Positions 2,246 through 52,235 of a stretch of DNA of 64,000 bases are shown in pieces. The notes below the pieces were generated by a model that was given only the letters and a program-made list of their open reading frames with translations, made no database searches and was not told the DNA's origin. This DNA is from Hyphomicrobium sp. (GTDB lineage: Bacteria > Pseudomonadota > Alphaproteobacteria > Rhizobiales > Hyphomicrobiaceae). Position numbers and translations under genes: made by a program. Location: assembly GCF_009026145.1 (NCBI RefSeq), contig NZ_WBUE01000002.1, positions 186,001 to 250,000 of the forward strand, written 5' to 3'. Position 1 is the first letter of the stretch. Each line of letters starts with the position of its first letter.

Positions 2246-2269
2246 ATGGAAATACTTGAGAGAGCTGTC

Positions 2270-4054
2270 ATGCGGACGAATCTAACGCCGAAGGCGTTGC
2301 TATCGGCGCTCGTTTTTGCCTTGGCTTCTCCCGCGCTCGCGCACGAAGGGCACGATCACGGCCCGCCGGCTGTCGAATTGCCGACATCCAACCAGCCTCG
2401 CGCCATTGCAGCGAGTGAGGATTACGAGATCGTCGCGGTTCTCAAGGGCGAGGAGCTATTCATTTACGTAGACCGGTTCGCTGACAATAGCCCCGTGACC
2501 GAAGCTCGTCTCACTGTCACTTTCGGCACTACGGATATCCAGACCAAATTGATGCCAGACGGTGTCTTCAAACTTGAAAGTAGAGAACTACGGCGGCCGG
2601 GCAAGCATGAACTCATTTTCGCGGTTGAAGAAGGCTCGAAGAGTGATCTTCTGATTACAAGTCTCGAAGTTCCCGAGCTGGCACTTGAATTGGCACCACA
2701 GTCCAACTCGGACCGGTTCCTGACATCGCATCTTGAGACGGCAATTTCTACGGTGAAGTCTTGGGTGACCCCACGGCAAATCGGCGTAACCGGCGGCATT
2801 CTTGGCGTCCTTCTCTTGGCGCTGCTCATATTACGTCGAAGGAAAGCCAGAGCGCTCAAGGCTGTCGTTACCGAGGTGGATCAGGCTAATGCCGACGCGG
2901 CCAAGACCGGTGTGTCGAAGCTTCGACCAAGATCGGCAGGACCCGCCGCCGCTGCAGCAATTCTGCTGCTCTTAGTCTCGCCGGCGACAAGGGCCGTCGC
3001 CCACGGAGACGAGGACCATGGCGATGCCAAACAATCGATTGCATTTGCCGGCGATGCCCCACGGCGGTTGCCGGACGCAAGCGTCTACCTACCGAAGCCC
3101 TCGCAGCGACTGCTCGAAGTGAGAACCATCCAAGCCAGGGAGACGACGACACAGCCAAGCGTCTCGTTCGTGGGCCGCATCATCGCCAATCCCGACCGCT
3201 TCGCCGTCGTACAAAGCACGCTTGGTGGGCGCTTCACGGCGCCCGCTTCCGGTCTTCCGAAGCTCGGACAAGCCGTCAGGGCGGGCGAAGTTTTGGGCTA
3301 TGTGGCACCCTACATCGCTACGATTGACCGGTCCGACGCGGCCCAGACGGCGGGCAATCTCGAGCAAGAGATTGCACTGGCGGAAAACCGGCTAGCGCGC
3401 GCCAAGCGGCTGCTCGCGGTCAATGCCGGCACAAGAGTTCAGGTGGAGGAAATCGAGATCCAACTCAAGGGCCTTGAGAAGCGCCGAGCCGATCTGCGGG
3501 CGAACCAGACCACCCCCGAGCCGCTCGTTGCGCCCATCGAGGGCGTGATCGCCGCCACCAAGGTTGTGGCCGGACAGGTCATCGAGGCGAAGGACGTCCT
3601 GTACGAGATCATCGATCCGTCGAGCCTGTGGGTCGAGGCGTTCGCTTTCGACCAGTCTGCGCCTCAAGCATTCTCCGAGGCATCGGCAACGGCGCACAAC
3701 TCCGCTTCTTTCAAGCTGAGGTTCATCGGCCGGAGCCGTGCACTGCGACAGCAGTCGACCGTGCTGCATTTCGCCATCGAGAACCCCGCCACCTCCCTCA
3801 ACGTCGGAATGCCCGTCACAGTGCTGGTTCGGGAAGGCGCCGCGATCAAAGGCATCGTCCTTCCGAAAGCGGCCGTCGTCCGTGCCGGGAATGGTGAGAA
3901 TGTTGTGTGGCAGCACCGGGAGCCGGAGCGCTTCATTGCCGCGCCGGTCAAGGTTTCAAGCTTCGACGGCGAGCGCGTACTGGTAAAGGGTGGCCTCAAG
4001 GCTGGCGAACGCATCGTGGTTGAGGGCGCCGAGCTCATTAACCAGGTGCGGTAG
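2270..4054 (+). CDS. HME-RND efflux periplasmic adaptor with extra N-terminal membrane domain
   Basis: Membrane-fusion protein of a tripartite heavy-metal RND pump; it links the inner-membrane pump to an outer-membrane channel. Counted from the longer frame at 2246, residues 9-32 form a signal peptide followed by HEGHDHG. A periplasmic domain runs to about 175, a transmembrane helix covers about 181-197 with an RRRK stop-transfer, a second hydrophobic stretch covers 233-251 followed by HGDEDHGD, and the HlyD-like barrel/lipoyl/hairpin region fills about 285-602. A normal adaptor has only the last part, so this looks like a fusion of a small His-containing membrane protein with a CzcB-like adaptor that kept its own signal sequence. 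The ATG at 2270 has a GAGAG ribosome site; 2246 is an alternative. The pump gene begins 12 bases downstream. Confidence 0.85.
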   Translation: MRTNLTPKALLSALVFALASPALAHEGHDHGPPAVELPTSNQPRAIAASEDYEIVAVLKGEELFIYVDRFADNSPVTEARLTVTFGTTDIQTKLMPDGVFKLESRELRRPGKHELIFAVEEGSKSDLLITSLEVPELALELAPQSNSDRFLTSHLETAISTVKSWVTPRQIGVTGGILGVLLLALLILRRRKARALKAVVTEVDQANADAAKTGVSKLRPRSAGPAAAAAILLLLVSPATRAVAHGDEDHGDAKQSIAFAGDAPRRLPDASVYLPKPSQRLLEVRTIQARETTTQPSVSFVGRIIANPDRFAVVQSTLGGRFTAPASGLPKLGQAVRAGEVLGYVAPYIATIDRSDAAQTAGNLEQEIALAENRLARAKRLLAVNAGTRVQVEEIEIQLKGLEKRRADLRANQTTPEPLVAPIEGVIAATKVVAGQVIEAKDVLYEIIDPSSLWVEAFAFDQSAPQAFSEASATAHNSASFKLRFIGRSRALRQQSTVLHFAIENPATSLNVGMPVTVLVREGAAIKGIVLPKAAVVRAGNGENVVWQHREPERFIAAPVKVSSFDGERVLVKGGLKAGERIVVEGAELINQVR

Positions 4055-4065
4055 GGAACGCCTCG

Positions 4066-7000
4066 ATGTTCAACTTCCTGGTCAGAAACAGCCTTAAGAA
4101 TCGCGTGTTCGTTCTCGCTGCCGCGCTCTTACTGATTGGCTATGGCAGCGTCGCTCTGCCGCGTCTGCCGGTGGACGTGTTCCCCGACCTCAACAAACCT
4201 CTCGTTACGCTCATGACCGAGGCCGAGGGGCTCGCGCCGCAAGAGGTTGAGCAGCTTGTCACTTACCCGATAGAAACGACGATGAACGGCATGCCTGGCG
4301 TCACGCGCGTCCGGTCCGTATCTGGCGTCGGCCTGTCGATCGTCTTTGTCGAGTTCGACTGGGGCACCGACATCTATCGCAACCGCCAGCAAGTGGCAGA
4401 GCGGCTCGCTCTGATCCAGAGCCAGCTTCCGCAGGGCGTACTCCCACAGATGGGGCCCATCTCGTCCATCATGGGCGAGATCATGCTCGTTGCCATCTCG
4501 AGCGACGGCCCGAGCCCGATGGACGTGCGGGAGATAGCTGACTTTGTGATCCGGCCGCAGCTCCTGGCGATCCCAGGTGTCAGCCAAGTGATCCCGATCG
4601 GGGGCGAGGTGCGACAGTATCGGGTGACACCCAACCTCGTCGCGATGCAGGCACTGGAGATCACCGCCGATACGATCGAGACCGCAATCAAGCGGTTCGG
4701 CTCCAATACCGGTGGCGGCTTCGTCGATCAGCACAGCCGCGAGTACCTCATCCGCAATGTTGGCTTGACCAACCGCCTCGAGGATCTCCGCAACGTGGTC
4801 GTCGCCTCCCGCGACGGACAGCCGATACTGTTGCGCCAAGTTGCCGAGGTGGATTTCGCTCCCCGCGTGAAGCGCGGAGACGCCGGCTTCATGGGCGCGC
4901 CCGCCGTTGTCATTTCGGTCCAGAAGCAGCCGGGCGCCGACACCATCAAGCTGACCAAGACAATCGAGACGACCCTCGCGGAGCTGGAGAAGACACTCCC
5001 GGAAGGAATCGCGGCGACCAACATACAGTTTCGGCAAGCAACCTTCATTGAGACCTCGATAGGCAATGTCGAAAAAGTCCTGGTCGAAGCCGCCGCCATC
5101 GTGGCGATTATCCTCATCGTCTTTCTCATGAATTGGCGGGCGACCATCATCTCGCTGACGGCTATTCCGATCTCAATTCTGATCACGGTCGTTGTGTTTC
5201 AGGCTTTCGGCCTCACGATCAACACCATGACGCTTGGCGGTCTTGCCATTGCCATGGGTGAGCTTGTCGACGACGCGGTCGTTGACGTCGAAAACGTCTT
5301 GCGGCGACTGAAAGAGAACTGCGCGGCATTACACCCTCAACCGGTGCTCGACGTTATCGCCCGTGCCTCTCAGGAGGTCCGCTCCGGCATCGTGAATGCC
5401 ACCATCATCATCGTGCTGGTGTTCGTGCCACTGTTTGCGCTGTCCGGCATTGAAGGCCGGCTCTTTTCGCCCCTCGGCGTTGCCTACATCGTGTCGATTC
5501 TGGGCAGCCTCATCACGTCGATCACGGTCACACCCGTGCTGTCCTACTATCTGCTCGCCAAGACAAGACACGCGGACGAGAAGGATAGCCTCGTGGCGGG
5601 CATCCTCAAGGCCGGCAACCGCAAGGCACTCGACTTCTTCTTCAACCACCCGATGCCGCTCATCAGCGTGATTGCGACCGCCGTGGTCGCCTCGGGCTAT
5701 GCGGCGACCTTGCTGCCACGTTCCTTCCTGCCGCCGTTCAATGAAGGCACGTTGACGATCAGCACACTCTTCAACCCCGGAATTTCACTGGCTGAATCGA
5801 ATCGGCTGGGTCTCATCGCCGAGCGCCTGATCCGCGAAGTGCCCGAAGTTGTATCCGTGGGCCGCCGCACGGGTCGCGCCGAATTGGACGAGCATGCGGA
5901 AGGCGTACATTCGAGCGAGATCGACGTGGACTTGAAGCGGTCGGAGCGACCGAAGGAGGCTGTGATGGCCGACATCCGGTCACGGCTATCCTCCCTGCCG
6001 ATGGCGGTCAACATCGGGCAGCCGATCTCGCACCGCTTGGACCACTTGTTGTCGGGCGTGCGCGCCGAAATTGCGCTCAAGGTTTACGGTGAGGATCTCG
6101 ACACCCTGCGCACGCTGGCCGAGACGTTGCGCGAAAAGCTGTCGCGCATCGACGGGCTCGTCGACCTGCAGATCGAGAAGCAGGTACGCATTCCCCAGCT
6201 TCGGGTTGCGGTCAATTACGAGAGGATCGCGCTTTACGGCATCACGCCCTCGGCGGTCACCGAGGCTCTCGAGGGTCTTTCCAATGGACGGGTCGTTTCG
6301 CAAATTTTGCAGGGTAATCGGCGCTTCGATGTGGTGCTCCGACTGCAGGATGCGGACCGCTCAACACAAGGGCTGAGCAAGCTCCTACTTCCCACGCCCA
6401 ACGGCTACATCCCCCTCGGTCTCGTCGCCACCGTCACCGAGGACGATGGGCCCAATCAGATCCTGCGGGAAAACGGGCAGAGGCGCATCGTGGTGCTCGC
6501 AAATAGCAACGGCCAGCGGGATTTGGCGAAGATCATCGCAGACATCCGCAGCGCCATTGCCACGACCCAGCTTCCGAGCGGCTACCGCACGAGCCTCGAG
6601 GGAACCTTCCAGGCGCAAGAGGAAGCGGCCTTGTTGATCGGACTCCTTTCGCTCATGTCGCTCGGGCTCATCTTCGTGGTGCTCTATACGCGCTACCAGT
6701 CGGTGATTTTGGCATTGATTATCATGGGCAACGTGCCGCTGGCGCTGATCGGCAGCATCATTGCGCTTTGGCTCGCCGGGCAACCCTTATCGGTGGCGAG
6801 CATGATCGGTTTCATCACGCTCACGGGCATCAGCGCGCGCAATGGCATCCTGAAAATCAGTCACTACATCAATTTGGCGCTCTACGAGGGAGAGACCTTC
6901 GGGCGGGCGCACATCATTCGCGGCAGCCTGGAGCGGCTGACGCCTGTCCTCATGACGGCACTTGCCGCGGGACTCGCCCTGATCCCGCTCTTGTTCGGTG

Positions 7001-7182
7001 CGGGGGAGGCCGGCCGCGAGATCCTGCACCCCGTGGCGGTCACCATTTTCGGTGGGCTCATCAGCTCCACGCTCCTCGACACCTTTCTCACGCCGGTCAT
7101 GTTCCTCAAGTTCGGGCGAAAGCCGCTCGAACGGATCATGGCCGGGAGAAAAGCAGCTCTCGCGCCGGCCGAAGCCTTTTAA
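4066..7182 (+). CDS. Heavy-metal efflux RND pump, CzcA/CusA family (divergent branch)
   Basis: A 1038-residue inner-membrane proton-driven metal exporter, full length for the HME-RND family, with the N-terminal helix (FLVRNSLKNRVFVLAAALLL), two large periplasmic loops and two six-helix bundles. The TM4 proton-relay motif reads GELVDDAVVDVENV. This differs from the Cu/Ag-type MVDAAIVMIENA in the second pump of this window, so the substrate is more likely a divalent ion such as zinc; that is inference from motif type. It follows the adaptor by 12 bases and precedes two small periplasmic genes, suggesting one transcript. No outer-membrane factor gene is present nearby. Confidence 0.92.
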   Translation: MFNFLVRNSLKNRVFVLAAALLLIGYGSVALPRLPVDVFPDLNKPLVTLMTEAEGLAPQEVEQLVTYPIETTMNGMPGVTRVRSVSGVGLSIVFVEFDWGTDIYRNRQQVAERLALIQSQLPQGVLPQMGPISSIMGEIMLVAISSDGPSPMDVREIADFVIRPQLLAIPGVSQVIPIGGEVRQYRVTPNLVAMQALEITADTIETAIKRFGSNTGGGFVDQHSREYLIRNVGLTNRLEDLRNVVVASRDGQPILLRQVAEVDFAPRVKRGDAGFMGAPAVVISVQKQPGADTIKLTKTIETTLAELEKTLPEGIAATNIQFRQATFIETSIGNVEKVLVEAAAIVAIILIVFLMNWRATIISLTAIPISILITVVVFQAFGLTINTMTLGGLAIAMGELVDDAVVDVENVLRRLKENCAALHPQPVLDVIARASQEVRSGIVNATIIIVLVFVPLFALSGIEGRLFSPLGVAYIVSILGSLITSITVTPVLSYYLLAKTRHADEKDSLVAGILKAGNRKALDFFFNHPMPLISVIATAVVASGYAATLLPRSFLPPFNEGTLTISTLFNPGISLAESNRLGLIAERLIREVPEVVSVGRRTGRAELDEHAEGVHSSEIDVDLKRSERPKEAVMADIRSRLSSLPMAVNIGQPISHRLDHLLSGVRAEIALKVYGEDLDTLRTLAETLREKLSRIDGLVDLQIEKQVRIPQLRVAVNYERIALYGITPSAVTEALEGLSNGRVVSQILQGNRRFDVVLRLQDADRSTQGLSKLLLPTPNGYIPLGLVATVTEDDGPNQILRENGQRRIVVLANSNGQRDLAKIIADIRSAIATTQLPSGYRTSLEGTFQAQEEAALLIGLLSLMSLGLIFVVLYTRYQSVILALIIMGNVPLALIGSIIALWLAGQPLSVASMIGFITLTGISARNGILKISHYINLALYEGETFGRAHIIRGSLERLTPVLMTALAAGLALIPLLFGAGEAGREILHPVAVTIFGGLISSTLLDTFLTPVMFLKFGRKPLERIMAGRKAALAPAEAF

Positions 7183-7202
7183 CTCTAGATACGGAGAACA
7201 CC

Positions 7203-7580
7203 ATGCGTGTAAAGCATCTCATCCTCGCCGCCGTACTATTCGCCGGCCCCGGAAATTCCTTCGCCCATGAGGAGGCGAACGGCCCCAACGGCGGCCAGAT
7301 CGCCGACGTGCAGGGCCACCATGTCGAGTTCACCGTCAAGGACAAAGAGATCGTCCTCTTTCTGACTGATGAAGACAGCAAGCCCATCGCCTCCAAGGGC
7401 GCCTCGGGCCGCGTGATCATTCAAGCCGGCGGCAGGCAGGTGACGGTAGCCTTGGCGCCGACCGATCCGAACGTGATGACCGCCAAGCTCGATGCTCCAC
7501 TTGCCGCACGAGCGAAAGTCGTCGTCTCGGCGAAACTCGGTGACGGTCACGATATCCAGGCACGCTTCGTCGCGAAGTGA
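7203..7580 (+). CDS. Small periplasmic protein of metal efflux cluster
   Basis: Predicted 125-residue exported protein. The true start is the ATG at 7203 (signal peptide MRVKHLILAAVLFAGPGNSFA), well inside the longer frame 6768-7580, which is a shadow of the pump gene. The mature N-terminus HEEANGPNGGQ followed by a beta-rich domain (GHHVEFTVKDKEIVLFL) matches small proteins I recall beside CzcBA-type pumps, possibly periplasmic metal chaperones. The exact role is not established. It starts 20 bases after the pump and ends 13 bases before the cupredoxin gene. Confidence 0.75.
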   Translation: MRVKHLILAAVLFAGPGNSFAHEEANGPNGGQIADVQGHHVEFTVKDKEIVLFLTDEDSKPIASKGASGRVIIQAGGRQVTVALAPTDPNVMTAKLDAPLAARAKVVVSAKLGDGHDIQARFVAK

Positions 7581-7593
7581 GGAGAAACCCGAG

Positions 7594-8076
7594 ATGTCGT
7601 ATTTTAAGAATTCGGCCATCCTGGCCTTGGTGCTTGCGATGCCCCTTGGCCTTGCGCGTGGGAGTGAAGAGCAAGGACATCACGGGCAAGATGAAAGTTC
7701 GGCAAATGGCATACCCGGCGACATGAATAAGCCGTCGCGGCTTGTCGCGGTATCCATGCGGGAAGGGGATGGCAAGATGCTGTTTGTGCCCGACGCCGTG
7801 ACCGTGGCCAAGGGAGAGCAGATTCACTTCCAGCTAAGGAATGACGGGGAGCTCGAGCATGAATTCGTGCTAGGGACCGCTGAGGAGTTCGCCGAGCACG
7901 CCGAAAAAATGAAGGCGCCTGATACGATGCACCGCGGCCCCAACGCCGTGCTACTCGGGCCAAAGGCGAGCGGGGATCTTGTCTGGAAATTCACGACGCC
8001 GGGCGACTTTGAATTTGCTTGCCTTATTCCCGGTCACCTGGAGGCTGGGATGAAGGGAAAAGTCGTCGTGAAATGA
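7594..8076 (+). CDS. Exported cupredoxin-domain protein
   Basis: A 160-residue periplasmic protein with signal peptide and a C-terminal cupredoxin fold. Type 1 copper ligands are visible in order: His in LEHEFVLG, Cys and His in ACLIPGHLEAGM, and the Met of the same motif. A ribosome site GTGAGGAG overlaps the stop of the preceding gene, supporting the ATG at 7594 over the longer frame. The linker after the signal peptide is His-rich (GHHGQD). Likely role: copper binding or electron transfer in the periplasm as last gene of the efflux operon. Confidence 0.85.
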   Translation: MSYFKNSAILALVLAMPLGLARGSEEQGHHGQDESSANGIPGDMNKPSRLVAVSMREGDGKMLFVPDAVTVAKGEQIHFQLRNDGELEHEFVLGTAEEFAEHAEKMKAPDTMHRGPNAVLLGPKASGDLVWKFTTPGDFEFACLIPGHLEAGMKGKVVVK

Positions 8077-12860: not shown

Positions 12861-12980
12861 ATCTGAGCGGCGGGCCCGGAAACCAAGCCGGCGTTGTGCG
12901 TTGCACGATCACCGCGAGGAGAACGCAACTGGGGGTCACCCGTTGGCTTCACTCAACCCGCTCTCCCAAGGAGAAAAGCC

Positions 12981-13313
12981 ATGTTACGCTATTTGACACA
13001 GTTCGCCTGTGGCGCTGCCGCGTTGGTCTTCATGGTCGTCGGCGCGCAAGCCATCCCTGCGCCGAAGCCTGCCGGCATTGCTGAAGCCTCAGCTGTGGAT
13101 ACGGTGCATTACCGTCGCCATCGACACCACCGGCGCTATTACCGGCACTACTACGGGTATTACCCGGGCTACTATTATTTGCATCCGTACTTTGGACATC
13201 ACCATCACCGGCACTTTGCCTTCCATGGTCACCACGGGTTCCATGGATTCCACGGTTTCCATGGGGGCCATGGAGGTCACGGCGGCCATGGCGGTCATGG
13301 CGGTCATCACTGA
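12981..13313 (+). CDS. His/Gly/Tyr-rich exported protein
   Basis: A 110-residue protein with a signal peptide (LTQFACGAAALVFMVVGAQA). After a linker come a basic Tyr/His/Arg segment (YRRHRHHRRYYRHYYGYY), then FHGFHGFHGG and a HGG tandem array ending HH. The ribosome site AAGGAG precedes ATG 12981, so the longer frame at 12894 is rejected. More than a quarter of the mature chain is histidine, which suggests Cu, Ni or Zn binding in the periplasm; no named family was recognised. The tandem HGG codons are prone to copy-number change. Confidence 0.75.
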   Translation: MLRYLTQFACGAAALVFMVVGAQAIPAPKPAGIAEASAVDTVHYRRHRHHRRYYRHYYGYYPGYYYLHPYFGHHHHRHFAFHGHHGFHGFHGFHGGHGGHGGHGGHGGHH

Positions 13314-13927: not shown

Positions 13928-16894
13928 CTAAATGATGTATCGGTCCCAGCCTGCATAAGCGTCCTTGACGCGTCCGCGGGGGATCGCCAACGCGATTAGC
14001 AGTGCACCGCCGATGACGCCGCTCCAGGTGGCGAGTGCCGAGCCGCTGCCTTCAAGCAGCCACGGTGCACCAATCAGCCAGGCGCCGAACAGAATATTGA
14101 TGAAGCGCACCGCGCGCGCGACCTCGGCGAAGGCCATGATCGAGAACACCACCACCAGAGAGCCCACCAGATGGTCGCTATCGGCCATGGCGCCCGAGTT
14201 GCCGAAGGTGAGCCGCGTCAGCATGAGCCAGACGCCAATCGCGCTACTCACCGCCAGCGTGACAGGGAAGCTCATGCCGCGGTCGGCCTCCCGCAGCATC
14301 TCGCCTACGGTTCCCAACAGACCTCTGGAGGAGTCGTCACTGCCGCCCTCCATCGCGTCCCCCATCAAGAAGGTGCGCCAGAACGGCTTACCTTGGCGGC
14401 GCGCCCAGACCAGGAATTGGCCCATTGCTACGAATTCGTCGAGCTGGTACGGGATCATGATTGTCATCGCCAGGGCCGCAATCAGGCAGAGCGTGCACCA
14501 GGTGCCGATAACGATCGGCTGGATGATGATGAAATAGATGCTCACCACGCCGAGCGGTACGATGAGGAAGGTGAGTGCCAGCACCATCCACGGCATGGTG
14601 CGCCAGCGGTCTTTGCCGCCCATCCAAGTCATCACCAGCTCGAGCATGTAAACGATGGCGCCCAGGGCCCCATCCGCAATCGGCCAAGCCTTGGAGACGT
14701 CTGAAGTGATGATCGCTTCGGTGCCATTCATGACACCTTTCATCTCGCCGCTGCCGGCGAAGAACGGCTCCCAGACGAAACCGACATGGCCTAGTTGATA
14801 GGCGCCGAGATAGCGGGCGATTAAAAATCCGAGAAAAGCGAGTACCGCGATCGGCGTGCGCTGTAGCCAGCTCGACGGGGTATACCCCCAACCCGGTGGG
14901 ATGTCGGGCTTGCCCATCATGCCTTCCATGCTCATGCCAGGCATCATTGGCACCAGCATCGAGAAGGCGATGACGAGCCCGCCGACCAGGGTGTCATTGG
15001 CATAGGCGGCGGGCAACGGCGTCCAGAATATTAGCGGCGCGAACAGCAGCCAGCCGCCGACGAAAGCGTTGGCCCATTGCGCCCAGGGAAAGCGGCGCGA
15101 CGAATCGAGGGACAATCTACTGAAAACGATCACCAGAACGCCACTGATGACATCGCTCCAGGTCATTGCCAGATTGCGCAGCTCGAACGACGGCAGCCCT
15201 CGCTCGGCCATGACGCGCAACTGGTCGGCATTGGGGACGAAATCGCTCAGATAGCCCAATGTCAGCGGGCTAGTTAGCAGCCAGAATCCGAGCATCAGGT
15301 TGAGGTAATGCGGCCACAGCATTTTGCGGTGGTCTTCGACCATCATGTCGGCATGGCCAGCCGCATGATCCATTGCGGCGCCGCGCGGCACGAGCGTCAT
15401 GCCGCATTTGGGGCAAGTGCCCGGCTCCTTGCTCACGACCTCGGGGTGCATCGGGCAGGTGTACTCGACCGCCTCCCCGGCATGCTTCATATCGCCGTGT
15501 CCGGCATGGTCTTCCTGCATGACCTTCCCCGGGACCTGGCGCAGTTCGAGCGGCATGCCGCATTTGGGACACCGGCCCGGTTCGCCGCTCGTGACCTCGG
15601 GGTGCAGCGGGCAGGTGCACTCGAGCGCCTCGGCCGGCAGCGTGGCAGGTTCCAGGGCCGTGCCGCAGCGCGGACAGTTGCCCGGCGAAGACTGAGCGAC
15701 TGTGGGGTGCATCGGGCAGGCATATACGCGGCGGCCTGATACGGTGAGCCGGGCGTCACCGTGCGCGTGCATGTGGCCGGAGGCGGGCGCGGGCTTGGTC
15801 GCCGGCACGGCGCGCTCCGCCCTTTTCTGCAAGGCTGATGGTGGCTCGAGGCCGTGCTCGCGGTACCAGCCGAGGGGATCGGCCTTCAATGCCGCAACCA
15901 TCTTCGGCATCGTCTCGCGCAGCGAGTGGCGCGGCTGCCAGCCGAGCAAGCTGCGGGCGCGCGTGATATCGAGCGCGTAGTGGTCATTGGCGCGGTCGAT
16001 CATCCAGGGCTTGATAAACGGATGCTGGCCGGGGATGTGGTCCTGAACCCAGGCCCCGATCTTCGCCATCAGCCAGGGGACATTCTGCGTCTCCCATGAC
16101 TCCTCGCCAATCAGCCGCCGGAACGTATGCTGCAGCTCGTCATAGCTGAGCGTCTCCGGCTCGCCGATCAGGATCGCCACCTCGGGCGGTAGCTTCGCTC
16201 GACGCTTGATGGTGCGCTCGATCGCGTCCACCACGTCGTCGAGATGAACGAAAGCCTGGCCGTGCGCGCTCGAGCCGGAGTAGAGGTGGCCAGCGAGCTG
16301 CCGCTCGTAGATGCGCTGGATCTGGTGGGCGAGCGGCGGGGAGTCGCAGACGTCGTTGTAGACCCCGGCAAGGCGCAGGGTCACGGCGGGAATGTCGCCA
16401 CGATGCTGCCGAATCAGCGCCTCGGTGCGCACCTTTGACTCGGGATAGGCCCAGGTCGGCCCGAGCGGCCAATCCTCAGTTATGAACTGCCCCGGCTCGC
16501 CCGGCCGGTGCACCAGCATGGTGCTCGAGAAAATGAACTGCTCGACCTTGAAGTGCTCGCGGAGCCCGAGCAACAGGCGTCGCGTGCCGTTGACGGTGAT
16601 CTCGTCGTATTTGCGGCTCGGTTGGCCGAGGAAATCGTAATACGCAGCCAGATGCACCACGCTGATGATGTGCGTCCCATGGTGCTCGCGCAAGACGAGC
16701 AGCCCTTCGCGGACGCTGTCATCGGAAGTAATGTCGACGGGTATGCGCACGCAGCCCGGTGGTGGCGGCGTAGGCGACTTGAGGTCGAAACCCACGACAT
16801 CGCTGAACTGACCGGTCAACCGCCGCGCCACTGCGCTGCCGATTCGGCCGTTGCTGCCGGTGACGAGGACGATACCCTTTGTCATCGCTGGCAT
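13928..16894 (-). CDS. Chimeric SDR epimerase / triple heavy-metal-binding / SPW-VKOR membrane protein
   Basis: A 988-residue multidomain protein. Residues 7-350: extended SDR/NAD-dependent epimerase with Rossmann motif TGSNGRIG and catalytic Y150-x3-K154 (YPESK). Residues 388-502: three heavy-metal-binding domains of the YxCPMHP...PGxCPxCGM type, separated by His-rich linkers. Residues 525-650: SPW-type helices (LMLGFWLLTSPLTLG, AFVGGWLLFAPLIFW). Residues 675-870: VKOR-like domain with C800-TL-C803 in a helix. The last 100 residues are a second SPW pair. The ribosome site is GGCGGAG. The first 515 residues lie in a 1601-bp repeat shared with the gene at 17038. Family knowledge suggests thiol redox plus metal binding at the membrane; the substrate of the SDR part is unknown. 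Confidence 0.85.
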   Translation of the reverse strand: MPAMTKGIVLVTGSNGRIGSAVARRLTGQFSDVVGFDLKSPTPPPPGCVRIPVDITSDDSVREGLLVLREHHGTHIISVVHLAAYYDFLGQPSRKYDEITVNGTRRLLLGLREHFKVEQFIFSSTMLVHRPGEPGQFITEDWPLGPTWAYPESKVRTEALIRQHRGDIPAVTLRLAGVYNDVCDSPPLAHQIQRIYERQLAGHLYSGSSAHGQAFVHLDDVVDAIERTIKRRAKLPPEVAILIGEPETLSYDELQHTFRRLIGEESWETQNVPWLMAKIGAWVQDHIPGQHPFIKPWMIDRANDHYALDITRARSLLGWQPRHSLRETMPKMVAALKADPLGWYREHGLEPPSALQKRAERAVPATKPAPASGHMHAHGDARLTVSGRRVYACPMHPTVAQSSPGNCPRCGTALEPATLPAEALECTCPLHPEVTSGEPGRCPKCGMPLELRQVPGKVMQEDHAGHGDMKHAGEAVEYTCPMHPEVVSKEPGTCPKCGMTLVPRGAAMDHAAGHADMMVEDHRKMLWPHYLNLMLGFWLLTSPLTLGYLSDFVPNADQLRVMAERGLPSFELRNLAMTWSDVISGVLVIVFSRLSLDSSRRFPWAQWANAFVGGWLLFAPLIFWTPLPAAYANDTLVGGLVIAFSMLVPMMPGMSMEGMMGKPDIPPGWGYTPSSWLQRTPIAVLAFLGFLIARYLGAYQLGHVGFVWEPFFAGSGEMKGVMNGTEAIITSDVSKAWPIADGALGAIVYMLELVMTWMGGKDRWRTMPWMVLALTFLIVPLGVVSIYFIIIQPIVIGTWCTLCLIAALAMTIMIPYQLDEFVAMGQFLVWARRQGKPFWRTFLMGDAMEGGSDDSSRGLLGTVGEMLREADRGMSFPVTLAVSSAIGVWLMLTRLTFGNSGAMADSDHLVGSLVVVFSIMAFAEVARAVRFINILFGAWLIGAPWLLEGSGSALATWSGVIGGALLIALAIPRGRVKDAYAGWDRYII

Positions 16895-16949
16895 GGCTGC
16901 AACTCCGCCTGATGTTGCATTGGGGGCCGACTATCGCCGCGTCTTCCTG
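15349..16949. repeat. 1601-bp direct repeat, copy 1
   Basis: From CGGCATGGCCAGCC to GTCGTCTTCCTG-type end, this segment matches 17607-19207 at a constant offset of 2258 bases. All ORFs in all frames of the track are duplicated with identical translations, so nucleotide identity is at or near 100 percent. It covers codons 1-515 of the chimeric gene plus about 55 bases upstream. Confidence 0.95.
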
Positions 16950-17037
16950 GTCGAGCAAGATGTCAAAGAAGTTGCGCGCGGCGGGCTCCGAGAGGGGATT
17001 GTCACCGACACGAAAAGGGTCATTGTTTCGTCTCTGG

Positions 17038-19152
17038 CTAGGGGGAAACGCGCTGATCGAGCGCGTCGTAATCCACAGCTTGCATGTTAGAAGATGCCTT
17101 CATAAACGCGACGATGTCCCAAATCTCCTGATCGGTCAGAGACGACCCCCAGGCCGGCATGCCGGTGAACCTGATGCCGTTCTTCGTCACCCAGAACAGC
17201 TCGGCGGCAGTCATATCGCTCACCAACTCGGCAAGCGGAGGCGCTTCCGGATTGAGCCCTTTCGACATCATCGTTACCTGCCAGCTGGGCGGGGTATGGC
17301 ACATGGCGCATTGATCTCGGAAGAGGCGAAAGCCGTTCTCCACCCGTCGCGCCTCGCCAAGGCGCGGCACCTGGATGTCCTTAGCGTGGCGGCGCACAGA
17401 GGCTTCGCGTGTGGTGATCAGTACCCATCGCAGTGGCGCCGCGTCGCTCACCGTCGCGGCGACGTTGAAGACGCCTGAGTAAATCACTGCAAGCGCCACA
17501 AGCACGCCGAGGAGGGGCCCGAGAACAGTGTAGATGAGCAGTGCAGCAAGTATCGGTTTCCAGGTCCCCGGCCCAAAGATTGCACGCCCGGCATGCGTGA
17601 TGTGCCCGGCATGGCCAGCCGCATGATCCATTGCGGCGCCGCGCGGCACGAGCGTCATGCCGCATTTGGGGCAAGTGCCCGGCTCCTTGCTCACGACCTC
17701 GGGGTGCATCGGGCAGGTGTACTCGACCGCCTCCCCGGCATGCTTCATATCGCCGTGTCCGGCATGGTCTTCCTGCATGACCTTCCCCGGGACCTGGCGC
17801 AGTTCGAGCGGCATGCCGCATTTGGGACACCGGCCCGGTTCGCCGCTCGTGACCTCGGGGTGCAGCGGGCAGGTGCACTCGAGCGCCTCGGCCGGCAGCG
17901 TGGCAGGTTCCAGGGCCGTGCCGCAGCGCGGACAGTTGCCCGGCGAAGACTGAGCGACTGTGGGGTGCATCGGGCAGGCATATACGCGGCGGCCTGATAC
18001 GGTGAGCCGGGCGTCACCGTGCGCGTGCATGTGGCCGGAGGCGGGCGCGGGCTTGGTCGCCGGCACGGCGCGCTCCGCCCTTTTCTGCAAGGCTGATGGT
18101 GGCTCGAGGCCGTGCTCGCGGTACCAGCCGAGGGGATCGGCCTTCAATGCCGCAACCATCTTCGGCATCGTCTCGCGCAGCGAGTGGCGCGGCTGCCAGC
18201 CGAGCAAGCTGCGGGCGCGCGTGATATCGAGCGCGTAGTGGTCATTGGCGCGGTCGATCATCCAGGGCTTGATAAACGGATGCTGGCCGGGGATGTGGTC
18301 CTGAACCCAGGCCCCGATCTTCGCCATCAGCCAGGGGACATTCTGCGTCTCCCATGACTCCTCGCCAATCAGCCGCCGGAACGTATGCTGCAGCTCGTCA
18401 TAGCTGAGCGTCTCCGGCTCGCCGATCAGGATCGCCACCTCGGGCGGTAGCTTCGCTCGACGCTTGATGGTGCGCTCGATCGCGTCCACCACGTCGTCGA
18501 GATGAACGAAAGCCTGGCCGTGCGCGCTCGAGCCGGAGTAGAGGTGGCCAGCGAGCTGCCGCTCGTAGATGCGCTGGATCTGGTGGGCGAGCGGCGGGGA
18601 GTCGCAGACGTCGTTGTAGACCCCGGCAAGGCGCAGGGTCACGGCGGGAATGTCGCCACGATGCTGCCGAATCAGCGCCTCGGTGCGCACCTTTGACTCG
18701 GGATAGGCCCAGGTCGGCCCGAGCGGCCAATCCTCAGTTATGAACTGCCCCGGCTCGCCCGGCCGGTGCACCAGCATGGTGCTCGAGAAAATGAACTGCT
18801 CGACCTTGAAGTGCTCGCGGAGCCCGAGCAACAGGCGTCGCGTGCCGTTGACGGTGATCTCGTCGTATTTGCGGCTCGGTTGGCCGAGGAAATCGTAATA
18901 CGCAGCCAGATGCACCACGCTGATGATGTGCGTCCCATGGTGCTCGCGCAAGACGAGCAGCCCTTCGCGGACGCTGTCATCGGAAGTAATGTCGACGGGT
19001 ATGCGCACGCAGCCCGGTGGTGGCGGCGTAGGCGACTTGAGGTCGAAACCCACGACATCGCTGAACTGACCGGTCAACCGCCGCGCCACTGCGCTGCCGA
19101 TTCGGCCGTTGCTGCCGGTGACGAGGACGATACCCTTTGTCATCGCTGGCAT
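17038..19152 (-). CDS. Chimeric SDR epimerase / triple heavy-metal-binding / membrane cytochrome c
   Basis: A 704-residue protein identical over residues 1-515 to the gene at 13928: SDR epimerase with YPESK, then three CPMHP/CPxCG metal-binding domains. The C-terminal part differs: a transmembrane helix at about 531-557 (LLIYTVLGPLLGVLVALAVI), a juxtamembrane YSGVFNVAATVSD block, and a cytochrome c domain with C615-AM-C618-H619 and a likely axial Met in TGMPAWG. Membrane-anchored cytochromes with this YSGVxxVAA...RWxLxTT layout are known by themselves; the fusion to an SDR is unusual. An N-terminal SDR lacks a signal peptide, so the topology is a puzzle: the cytochrome must be periplasmic to receive haem. 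It lies 97 bases downstream of the SH3-like gene. Confidence 0.85.
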   Translation of the reverse strand: MPAMTKGIVLVTGSNGRIGSAVARRLTGQFSDVVGFDLKSPTPPPPGCVRIPVDITSDDSVREGLLVLREHHGTHIISVVHLAAYYDFLGQPSRKYDEITVNGTRRLLLGLREHFKVEQFIFSSTMLVHRPGEPGQFITEDWPLGPTWAYPESKVRTEALIRQHRGDIPAVTLRLAGVYNDVCDSPPLAHQIQRIYERQLAGHLYSGSSAHGQAFVHLDDVVDAIERTIKRRAKLPPEVAILIGEPETLSYDELQHTFRRLIGEESWETQNVPWLMAKIGAWVQDHIPGQHPFIKPWMIDRANDHYALDITRARSLLGWQPRHSLRETMPKMVAALKADPLGWYREHGLEPPSALQKRAERAVPATKPAPASGHMHAHGDARLTVSGRRVYACPMHPTVAQSSPGNCPRCGTALEPATLPAEALECTCPLHPEVTSGEPGRCPKCGMPLELRQVPGKVMQEDHAGHGDMKHAGEAVEYTCPMHPEVVSKEPGTCPKCGMTLVPRGAAMDHAAGHAGHITHAGRAIFGPGTWKPILAALLIYTVLGPLLGVLVALAVIYSGVFNVAATVSDAAPLRWVLITTREASVRRHAKDIQVPRLGEARRVENGFRLFRDQCAMCHTPPSWQVTMMSKGLNPEAPPLAELVSDMTAAELFWVTKNGIRFTGMPAWGSSLTDQEIWDIVAFMKASSNMQAVDYDALDQRVSP

Positions 19153-19207
19153 GGCTGCAACTCCGCCTGATGTTGCATTGGGGGCCGACTATCGCCGCGT
19201 CTTCCTG
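17607..19207. repeat. 1601-bp direct repeat, copy 2
   Basis: Second copy of the repeat, at constant offset 2258 from copy 1. The 657 bases between the copies hold the cytochrome c tail of the gene at 17038 and the promoter-proximal gap before the gene at 13928. Confidence 0.95.
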
Positions 19208-19249: not shown

Positions 19250-19993
19250 TCAGGCTGGGGCAAGCTCCTCCGCCACGTACCAATTATGCACTTCGGGCAT
19301 GTCGTCGAACTTAACGCCCAGTGCGGGAGTGGCGATCTCGACGATCGTTCCGGTCTTGCCAATCGTCATCTTGTCATGCTGCAGGCCGGGTTTCACCCTG
19401 ACCCGATCCCCAACTGAGTACGAGTCTCCCTCAAGTTCCTCTGCCACATACCACTTGTGTATCTCAGGCATCCCCTCAAACTTCACGGCGAGAGCGGGAC
19501 TGCCGATCTCGATGACGGTTCCGGTCCTTCCGCGGGTCATGGCATTGTGTTCTATGGTAGGCTTGACCCGCACGCGCTCACCGAGCGCGTAGCCGCCCGC
19601 GTCAGCCACGGACATCTCGGCCAGCACGATCCTCCCGCGGTGGGGCTCGATTCCGCTCGGATCGAAGTTCTGACTGACGCCATCGGCCGCCGTTATGTGC
19701 GGCACTTGTTGGTCGTGGTCGAAACTCGCGCCGGTCCGCATTCGGATGGCTTCGCGGACGAAGATCGTAATCGCCTTTCTGTAATCGGACGGGGCATTGG
19801 TTTCCTGCAACCAAACCATCTGCAGTTTACCGCTGTGGCGCCACAGTGAGAACTCCCGGCCGGCGACCGGCGACTGACCAGGGCCCGCCATACGCGCCAG
19901 CTGCTCCTCATCGGAGCCAGCTATTGCCTGACCGGAGACGCCCATCATCACCGCGATGAGAGTGCCGGCCAGAACACCGGATTTGATCTTCAT
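19250..19993 (-). CDS. Exported protein with tandem SH3/KOW-like repeats
   Basis: A 247-residue protein. The start is taken at the ATG with ribosome site CCGGAGAGAAACTC, followed by a signal peptide (MKIKSGVLAGTLIAVMMGVS, cleavage near AIA); the longer frame to 20167 reads through the promoter region. Residues 134-188 and 191-245 are two repeats of about 55 residues sharing GxRVRVKPxxxH, RTGTVIEI/KTGTIVEI and WYVAEEL, a small beta-barrel pattern resembling KOW/SH3-type domains. Residues 45-100 form a separate region. No function is known to me. It is the first gene of the minus-strand run that includes the two chimeric proteins. Confidence 0.65.
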   Translation of the reverse strand: MKIKSGVLAGTLIAVMMGVSGQAIAGSDEEQLARMAGPGQSPVAGREFSLWRHSGKLQMVWLQETNAPSDYRKAITIFVREAIRMRTGASFDHDQQVPHITAADGVSQNFDPSGIEPHRGRIVLAEMSVADAGGYALGERVRVKPTIEHNAMTRGRTGTVIEIGSPALAVKFEGMPEIHKWYVAEELEGDSYSVGDRVRVKPGLQHDKMTIGKTGTIVEIATPALGVKFDDMPEVHNWYVAEELAPA

Positions 19994-20100
19994 GAGTTTC
20001 TCTCCGGCTCGCCGCGTGGCGACACTGCGCTCTTCCGACAGCGGCGGCTCGCGCCTCTGAAGTGGTGATTTGCCAACACCGGCTATTCGCTCCTCCTCTA

Positions 20101-20146
20101 GAGTTACAAAGTTCCATCCACTAAAGTTACACAAAGTTGCACAAAC
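20101..20146 (-). promoter_or_regulatory. Cluster of AACTTTGT-type direct repeats in divergent promoter
   Basis: Read on the minus strand, the region holds GCAACTTTGTGTAACTTTAG and then GGAACTTTGTAACTC, i.e. three spaced copies of (T/G)AACTTTGT or its core AACTTT. It lies between the divergent genes at 19993 and 20232, a natural place for an operator. The protein that binds is unknown. Confidence 0.4.
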
Positions 20147-20231
20147 ATATGACCACACAATTCTCACCTAACTAAGCTACCCCTAAGCGCGCAAAATTGA
20201 TATCGTGATCAGTGGTTTTAAGGGGGATACC

Positions 20232-48756: not shown

Positions 48757-50205
48757 CTAAAAGGCCGTCCACGAATAGAGCAGGACGGTGTTGTCGTCCC
48801 TGGCGTTGCGCCCCATGCCATCGTAGTTGGTACTCGCCCCGTTCAGCTTGTCGTAGTGCCAGTACTGCGCACCAAAGCGCGTATTGAGCCAAGGCCAGAA
48901 GCTGGGACCCCCATGGCTCCAGGGGGAGTAGCCGATGTCGATAACTTCCCCGCTTGTATTCGGCGAGCCGTTAGCCGTCTCGAAGTAGCTGAAAGGCATA
49001 CCATCGGCGTCGAAACCTAAGTCCGTACTGCCGGTTGTGTTGAAGTATCCGAGCGTCACCGACCACCTGGCGTCATATGAATACGTTAGTGAGGCATTGA
49101 ACTGTGCGAGGTGGTTCTTCAGATTTGCCGCCATTCCGTTGAAGACGCTCCCGTACAGTTTTTGCCATTCATAGATGTAGCTCACCCGTGCGGTGAAGAA
49201 ATGCAGGTCACTGAGATACTGGAACTGCGCGTCCCACCCCACATCCGTGATCTGGTCGGCGGGAGACACCATCATGACGTCAGGGATGACATTGGCAGTG
49301 ATGCCGAAGGTGCCGAGCATGAGCGAGTAAACGTCCCAGGTCTTCTCGACCGCCAGGCGCCAATAGGGGGCCGCCCCGTCGAAGGCGAACATGGGCGGAC
49401 CTTCGCCGAGCGCCTGCAGCAGGTCTTTGTCGAGCGTGTTGTAAGCGCTCACGGCGGCGTAAAACATGTTGTTGGCGAAGACATAGCCCCCAGCTCCGGC
49501 CACCATGGCGTCCAGCATGTCAATCAACGGAGCTGGGGTTTCGGGAGCGAATGCGCTGGTGACTGAGCCCATTCCGGGAATGCGCCAGGCGGGTGTCGTA
49601 TTCCACGGGTCCTCGAGCGTCGGGTTGTTGTTGACGTCAAGGCCGTAGATCAGGTCGATGCCGCCGACCTGGGTTCTATTGGCATAGCGAATATCTGCCA
49701 TCTCCAGGGCAAAAACCTCCTCGGCTCGATCGTATGCCGCTTGAATCATCGCACCGAGCTGGCAGTAGATCTGGCCGTCGTAACCAACAATCCAGTCCTG
49801 CACCATCACATTGTTGTTGGTTTTCAAGCCGTTTGGCTCACCGTCCCGGTTCGTTGGCAACTCCGCCAGATCTTTTTGCGTGTGCGTGTAGGTCGGCACC
49901 AGCATGACCGAGATCGGGATCTGGGGCGTCGGGTCAGCCGCCACGCTGTCGCGGCACCGGGTGCCGCCGGCCGTATAGCCATTGAGCTTGAACTGCCGAC
50001 CGTAGGGCGTCAGCTGCGGAAAGGCTCCATTATGGCAGGTCGCGCACGGTTGGCCGGTTTGGCGGGCAAAGCTCGGCACGGCCCAGGCTGGTCCTGCCCT
50101 CAGCGAAAGCCCTGCCGCCAGGGCCAAGGCACAAGCGGTCGCGCCGCCGAAGACGTATAGCGGGGAAAGATCAGTGCCGATGCCGCGATCTCCCCTACGC
50201 GTCAT
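48757..50205 (-). CDS. Porin-like outer-membrane monoheme cytochrome (Cyc2-like)
   Basis: A 482-residue protein. Signal helix about residues 14-40 ending AWA, then VPSFARQTGQPC54-AT-C57-H58, and PQLTPYGRQFKLNGYT. After this single N-terminal haem site the chain is all alternating beta-strand sequence with aromatic girdles (YDARWSVTLGYFNTTGSTDL, LNTRFGAQYWHYDKLNG) ending in Phe, as an outer-membrane barrel. A haem domain directly fused to a porin is the design of Cyc2 iron oxidases, which share the FARQTG..C..CH...P.L..FGR.FK..GY start. Membership is a proposal: many related cytochrome-porins have no known substrate. It heads the minus-strand cytochrome/hemA operon. Confidence 0.75.
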   Translation of the reverse strand: MTRRGDRGIGTDLSPLYVFGGATACALALAAGLSLRAGPAWAVPSFARQTGQPCATCHNGAFPQLTPYGRQFKLNGYTAGGTRCRDSVAADPTPQIPISVMLVPTYTHTQKDLAELPTNRDGEPNGLKTNNNVMVQDWIVGYDGQIYCQLGAMIQAAYDRAEEVFALEMADIRYANRTQVGGIDLIYGLDVNNNPTLEDPWNTTPAWRIPGMGSVTSAFAPETPAPLIDMLDAMVAGAGGYVFANNMFYAAVSAYNTLDKDLLQALGEGPPMFAFDGAAPYWRLAVEKTWDVYSLMLGTFGITANVIPDVMMVSPADQITDVGWDAQFQYLSDLHFFTARVSYIYEWQKLYGSVFNGMAANLKNHLAQFNASLTYSYDARWSVTLGYFNTTGSTDLGFDADGMPFSYFETANGSPNTSGEVIDIGYSPWSHGGPSFWPWLNTRFGAQYWHYDKLNGASTNYDGMGRNARDDNTVLLYSWTAF

Positions 50206-52119: not shown

Positions 52120-52235
52120 CTCGGGCTCGTCCGCCAAATCTTTTTGCGTGTGCGTGTAGGTTGGCACCAGCATTGCCGAGTTCGGGATCTGTGGGGGCGG
52201 GGTCAGCCAGCAGCGGAGAGGCGGAAACGTTCGTC
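52120..52235 (-). pseudogene. Fragment of a second porin-cytochrome gene
   Basis: In one minus frame: QIPNSAMLVPTYTHTQKDLA, against QIPISVMLVPTYTHTQKDLA in the gene at 48757. Nucleotide similarity is high over about 75 bases (TCTTTTTGCGTGTGCGTGTAGG) and fades on both sides; a frameshift precedes it. The haem site is not preserved. Confidence 0.8.

Follow-up and report, generated by a model that had tools for sequence, protein, structure and literature searches.

The window analysed here, a 64,000-nucleotide stretch of a 307-kb Hyphomicrobium contig (genome 4.3 Mb, 63 contigs), carries two adjacent reverse-strand genes, P0001 and P0002, whose intact open reading frames of high GC3 begin with the same sequence (Table 1). 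Pairwise base comparison revealed that 1601 of 1601 bases are shared at an offset of 2258, comprising the 55 bases upstream of each ATG, in which a Shine-Dalgarno-like GGCGGAG can be read, and 1546 nt of each coding sequence (515 codons plus one base). Identity in the flanks is at chance beyond both repeat ends, so that the edges are sharp and the neighbouring sequence is unrelated. The repeat lies far beyond chance, because no second direct exact repeat longer than 74 bp was found in the whole 307-kb contig. Past the repeat, Pfam profiles showed that the gene ends diverge: P0001 continues into an SPW-VKOR-SPW membrane module, P0002 into a transmembrane (TM) anchor and a cytochrome c domain. 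An earlier sequence-only reading had reported the shared 515 codons and 55 upstream bases at this offset, which we could confirm in every measurable detail, and Pfam agreed with its domain make-up for both proteins (an SDR, three metal-binding domains, and cytochrome c or SPW plus VKOR ends); the repeats that it called near-identical are in fact identical. The spacer between the two genes holds a protein-like reading continuous in frame with the repeat (NDPFRVGDNPLSEPAARNFFDILLDQ...), the translation of which had no convincing homologue and a single weak match, on an Allorhizobium plasmid (E = 0.1). Elsewhere in the window, a 72-nt direct repeat (49862-49933 and 52130-52201) has 89% identity and a spacing of 2268. 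Upstream of the twin genes, 19250-20167 on the reverse strand encodes a protein with two similar repeats (GERVRVKP...KWYVAEEL) and no match in a Pfam search.

Table 1 Features of the twin-gene locus, in window coordinates
Feature	Position	Strand	Basis
IS3-type transposase OrfA remnant, directly downstream of P0001	13438..13842	-	HTH_Tnp_1; site of cytochrome c in relatives
P0001, SDR - 3x HMBD - SPW - VKOR - SPW, 988 aa, ancestral layout	13928..16894	-	Full-length collinear homologues, 75-77% DNA identity
Second SPW domain	13985..14251	-	Pfam
VKOR domain (residues 681-817)	14444..14854	-	Pfam, 77.2 bits against a cut-off of 27.5; structure comparison
CTLC (C800-C803), start of VKOR TM4	14486..14497	-	Sole cysteines in the P0001 membrane part
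First SPW repeat region, 4 predicted helices	14954..15316	-	Pfam and structure model
Repeat copy 1, 55 bp upstream + 515 codons	15349..16949	-	Exact comparison
Three HMBD (CPMHP...CPxCG) stretches of P0001; same in P0002 at +2258	15383..15703	-	Pfam
Extended-SDR domain of P0001 (TGxxGxxG, S124/T125, Y150xxxK154); same in P0002 at +2258	15899..16870	-	Profile and conserved residues
Spacer, 88 bp, between cytochrome stop and repeat copy 1	16950..17037	-	No homologue found
P0002, SDR - 3x HMBD - TM anchor - cytochrome c fusion, 704 aa	17038..19152	-	No fused homologue found
Cytochrome c domain (CAMCH haem motif, TGMPAW Met ligand)	17101..17343	-	Pfam Cytochrome_CBB3/Cytochrom_C, residues 604-686
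TM anchor of the cytochrome part	17482..17559	-	Position read from sequence
Repeat copy 2, 100% identical to copy 1	17607..19207	-	Exact comparison

The shared head combines an NAD-dependent epimerase fold with three HMBD stretches in both proteins (PF19335, 110.9 and 113 bits against a cut-off of 23.6). T12, G13, G16, G19, S124, Y150 and K154 are invariant across 26 sequences and T125 nearly so, which argues for catalysis. Searching the PDB with the single SDR protein gave no match at 1e-10, while an SDR profile did obtain matches, the nearest folds being sugar-nucleotide epimerases and dehydratases. The domain has its fold, TGxxGxxG and YxxxK in common with extended SDRs of the NDP-sugar type (GalE, RmlB and the UDP-glucuronate 4-epimerase 6zl6), but unlike them it goes together with a membrane redox module in most loci examined. 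Assignment as GalE or another named sugar epimerase was rejected, because the scores fall far below every NCBIfam equivalog cut-off (e.g., GalE, 41.2 against 262.3 bits; HpnA, 32.7 against 367.7 bits). Fused homologues contain 3, 2, 1 or 0 HMBDs, suggesting that the HMBD is an optional insert between the SDR and the membrane part.

Homologues were recovered from genomes of the same order and class, plasmids and GTDB genomes, and their hosts span Gamma-, Beta- and Alphaproteobacteria, Nitrospira, Chloroflexi, Acidobacteria, Bacteroidetes, Chlamydiae and Planctomycetes; viral contigs that were searched held no relative. When 103 homologous loci were checked ORF by ORF, the SDR and SPW-VKOR-SPW formed one ORF in 40 and lay adjacent, SDR then SPW-VKOR, in 48, while the SDR stood alone within the stretch compared in 13. 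The SDR-HMBD-SPW-VKOR order, unfamiliar to the sequence-only reading and taken there as possibly new, is thus widespread. P0001 aligns end to end with five of these loci (L045, L046, L047, L048 and L050; 75-77% DNA identity), straight through the copy-1 edge at 15349, which demonstrates that P0001 has the native layout. It is a plain member, roughly 46-57% identical among the matches listed, of a group of proteobacterial plasmid proteins annotated "vitamin K epoxide reductase family protein" or "NAD-dependent epimerase/dehydratase family protein"; it differs from them in its three HMBDs, and P0002 in that cytochrome c replaces the membrane module. The open-access literature searched yielded no description of an SDR-SPW-VKOR protein. 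The parent layout is a known and widespread but unstudied kind of protein. Among 103 genomes of the organism's own family, a head of comparable similarity occurs only here, which suggests horizontal gain. Two relatives have additional copies: the genome with locus L022 (G145) carries a second SPW-VKOR ORF of 652 aa (L021), which lacks an SDR and lies about 13 kb away, and an acidobacterial contig (L063) has two SDR copies ~6 kb apart, one of them followed by SPW-VKOR, possibly another head duplication.

The membrane part of the parent protein was compared with the quinone-dependent thiol oxidoreductases of the VKOR/DsbB type. Its structure model has a mean pLDDT of 86.8 (the full-length model has low overall confidence, pTM 0.44), and the known structure that it resembles most, Synechococcus VKOR, is matched only weakly (E 0.2, probability 0.90). 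With Synechococcus (4nv5) and human (6wv3) VKOR it shares a four-helix core, a CXXC at the start of TM4 and a Pfam VKOR score above cut-off. The CXXC is kept in the VKOR part of the family, and in the model C800-C803 marks the N-terminus of the predicted helix 287-319 (the helix being numbered within the membrane part). Judging from the helix count and from charges that follow the positive-inside rule loosely, the SDR, HMBDs and C-terminus would be cytoplasmic, and the CXXC would sit where VKOR TM4 meets the periplasm. Two further features mark VKOR enzymes (PMC11208910): a CXnC pair in the TM1-TM2 loop and, at CXXC+4, a position that matters for quinone use, an aromatic residue, whose place Arg takes in DsbB. 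In all 40 sequences, the TM1-TM2 loop is free of cysteines and position CXXC+4 is neither aromatic nor Arg (Ala in 33, Ser in 5, Gly in 2). By predicted fold and CXXC the membrane part is VKOR-like, yet it fails the two defining VKOR features tested and, unlike 4nv5 and 6wv3, has SPW repeats on either side and an SDR either in the same ORF or next to it.

The P0002 tail resembles a membrane-anchored monohaem cytochrome c, with a CxxCH (as CAMCH), a distal Met, an N-terminal TM segment and a Cytochrome_CBB3 score of 57.8 bits against a cut-off of 27. Eight loci (L022, L046, L052, L056, L057, L058, L060 and L071) encode a cytochrome c 53-66% identical to this tail within 1 kb downstream of SPW-VKOR, beginning anywhere between a slight overlap and 0.75 kb past the SPW-VKOR stop, as a separate gene with its own visible start codon. 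Among the matches listed, no unlinked cytochrome homologue from the same genome, family or order exceeds 42% identity. A conserved, separate cytochrome partner of the parent protein is plausible. Unlike these operon-linked cytochromes, the P0002 tail has no start of its own and continues from the SDR-HMBD head: no in-frame ATG, GTG or TTG occurs from the junction to codon 550, inside the anchor helix, so translation of the tail would have to begin at the P0002 start, giving the fusion, or at an internal start in the repeat, the ATG at codon 508 being one candidate. None of the 103 loci contains an SDR-cytochrome c ORF. Genomes sampled from the order, family and class gave no SDR-HMBD-cytochrome c ORF either, and the 515 plasmid records that matched had none at 80% coverage, although the genome searches score few candidates per genome and rare fusions could escape them. 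The fusion is likely a recent variant of a single lineage, found only in this genome. The sequence-only reading had taken this layout, too, as possibly new and had itself named homologues with one of the C-terminal parts in a separate, self-starting gene as grounds for refutation, which is how the cytochrome occurs in the eight loci. Its idea that one common head feeds two electron acceptors is, as a design, unlikely, since the cytochrome tail is normally a separate gene and no second SDR-cytochrome ORF was found. In L022 (4388-7762), SDR-HMBD, SPW-VKOR and cytochrome c are three tightly packed genes, the end of SDR-HMBD overlapping the SPW-VKOR ORF.

We hypothesize that the twin genes arose by a recent rearrangement of such an operon. 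The ancestral unit would have been SDR-(HMBD)-SPW-VKOR-SPW followed by a separate gene for a membrane-anchored cytochrome c; its main product would have been a cytoplasmic NAD(P)-binding extended SDR with an optional HMBD tether and a ~12-helix SPW-VKOR-SPW module bearing one periplasm-facing CXXC. A copy of the upstream 55 bp and the SDR-HMBD head would then have been joined in frame to the cytochrome c gene, providing the cytochrome with a new N-terminus and translation start. Gene order in the window (head-cytochrome, spacer, head-SPW-VKOR, IS3 remnant) differs from that in relatives (head, SPW-VKOR, cytochrome c), and the simplest route between them would be a tandem duplication of the operon, after which the upstream copy lost SPW-VKOR in frame and the downstream copy lost its cytochrome gene beside the IS3 remnant; template switching during replication could give the same arrangement. 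We infer this order of events, and neither intermediate states nor the lost second cytochrome were seen. The exact repeat, upstream bases included, supports the recent duplication or conversion already proposed from the sequence. If the two heads recombined, 2258 bp would be lost and the ancestral SDR-HMBD-SPW-VKOR gene would re-form, such that mixed populations are expected.

Two other accounts of the twin structure were weighed against this rearrangement. The true locus might hold a single head, with the head-cytochrome or spacer-head join produced by the assembler or by mixed strains. The perfect identity over 1601 bp would fit such an artefact, as would an estimated genome contamination of 5.29%. 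So would the failure to find a 16S rRNA gene in the 63-contig genome although it is rated 100% complete, which signals that the assembly left repeats unresolved. Moreover, with no further exact repeat above 74 bp in the contig and no 16S rRNA gene found, nothing indicates that the assembler can resolve repeats of 1.6 kb. However, the head-cytochrome join is in frame and yields a clean 704-aa ORF with no leftover native cytochrome start, the relatives' operon includes the same cytochrome, which argues against a random join, and the long contig that contains both joins is free of Ns. An artefact is therefore unlikely in our view, albeit with a chance large enough to be taken seriously. Alternatively, P0001 and P0002 could be paralogous fusions of long standing in which gene conversion maintains identical heads, and a single SDR-metal head would by design serve two redox tails. 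Intact ORFs of high GC3, identical heads on unrelated tails and the operon partnership of cytochrome and SPW-VKOR in relatives are all consistent with this account, but it sits poorly with the absence of the fused ORF from the loci, genomes and plasmid records searched and with the identity of the 55 upstream bases, which fits one recent copying event; we regard it as decidedly improbable. Recent rearrangement of the operon, taken as the whole explanation and including the redox function proposed below, is the reading we favour and consider somewhat probable.

It is the plasmid-borne relatives that link the family to metals. Of these, 14 of 14 examined have genes for copper, other metals or periplasmic thiol redox no farther than 7 kb away, against 2 of 10 controls (the opposite stretch on ten of the same plasmids), an association rather than a functional test, as the gene classes were set after looking and the relatives are best matches. 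These neighbours include CueR, multicopper oxidase, CopBCD, CusA/B, P-type ATPase, DUF411, DUF305, SCO, TlpA, DsbA and CcdA; a Glaciecola plasmid relative has mercury genes only. Chromosomal relatives have mixed neighbours with no dominant family besides the cytochrome. In the window, 2246-8076 encodes a CusB-like (HlyD) protein, a CusA-like RND pump and a cupredoxin of the plastocyanin/azurin type, 6-14 kb from the twin genes; with a protein at 3-644 that resembles the end of a multicopper oxidase, they make up a putative copper-handling cluster. Both the plasmid contexts and this CusB/CusA-like pair with its cupredoxin agree with the metal-linked redox association that had been suggested.

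From these features the parent protein may be a redox membrane protein of the thiol/quinone type that acts when copper or another metal stresses the envelope, and the cytochrome would probably be its electron partner. In a competing account, the membrane protein would sense, carry or chaperone metal while anchored to the SDR; its CXXC and HMBDs would bind copper, and no thiol/quinone enzyme would be involved. The HMBD stretches, the copper neighbourhoods of the plasmid relatives and the absence, in 40 of 40 sequences, of the loop cysteines and CXXC+4 residue that known VKOR chemistry requires speak for it; many homologues without HMBDs, the invariant SDR catalytic residues and the frequent thiol-redox neighbours (TlpA, DsbA, CcdA) speak against it, and we consider it unlikely but the most serious of the alternatives. 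More speculatively, and with little confidence on our part, the NAD(P)-dependent SDR, the SPW-VKOR-SPW module with its lone CXXC and the anchored cytochrome c could form a widespread three-part system that moves electrons or thiol redox equivalents across the membrane during metal stress by a chemistry unlike that of VKOR/DsbB; here, the duplicated SDR-HMBD head would speak directly to cytochrome c. If a redox role in metal stress is true, the family would be a missing component of plasmid-borne copper resistance. The twin repeat offers a clean recent example of a head-to-tail fusion protein born from an operon. The neglected parent family, which couples an SDR to a VKOR-like membrane part in many phyla, is often plasmid-borne with copper-resistance genes and lacks residues thought essential to VKOR chemistry, is of more interest than the repeat itself.

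Perfect FNR/FixK-type palindromes (TTGAT-N4-ATCAA) occur in the window at 1632 and 56413, and also downstream of the operon in L046, L056 and L058. Regulation of the operon by FNR is not proposed, as the 55-bp upstream repeat has no FNR/FixK-type box and the palindromes take no consistent position near relatives. In Sulfobacillus, a VKOR-annotated gene lies in a plasmid-like region rich in metal-resistance genes (PMC6803676); that report makes no mention of an epimerase, and a relation to the parent family is only possible. Beside the IS3 remnant, 12894-13313 on the forward strand encodes a predicted secreted protein with a His/Gly/Tyr-rich tail (HGHHGFHGFHGGHGGHGG...) that possibly binds metal.
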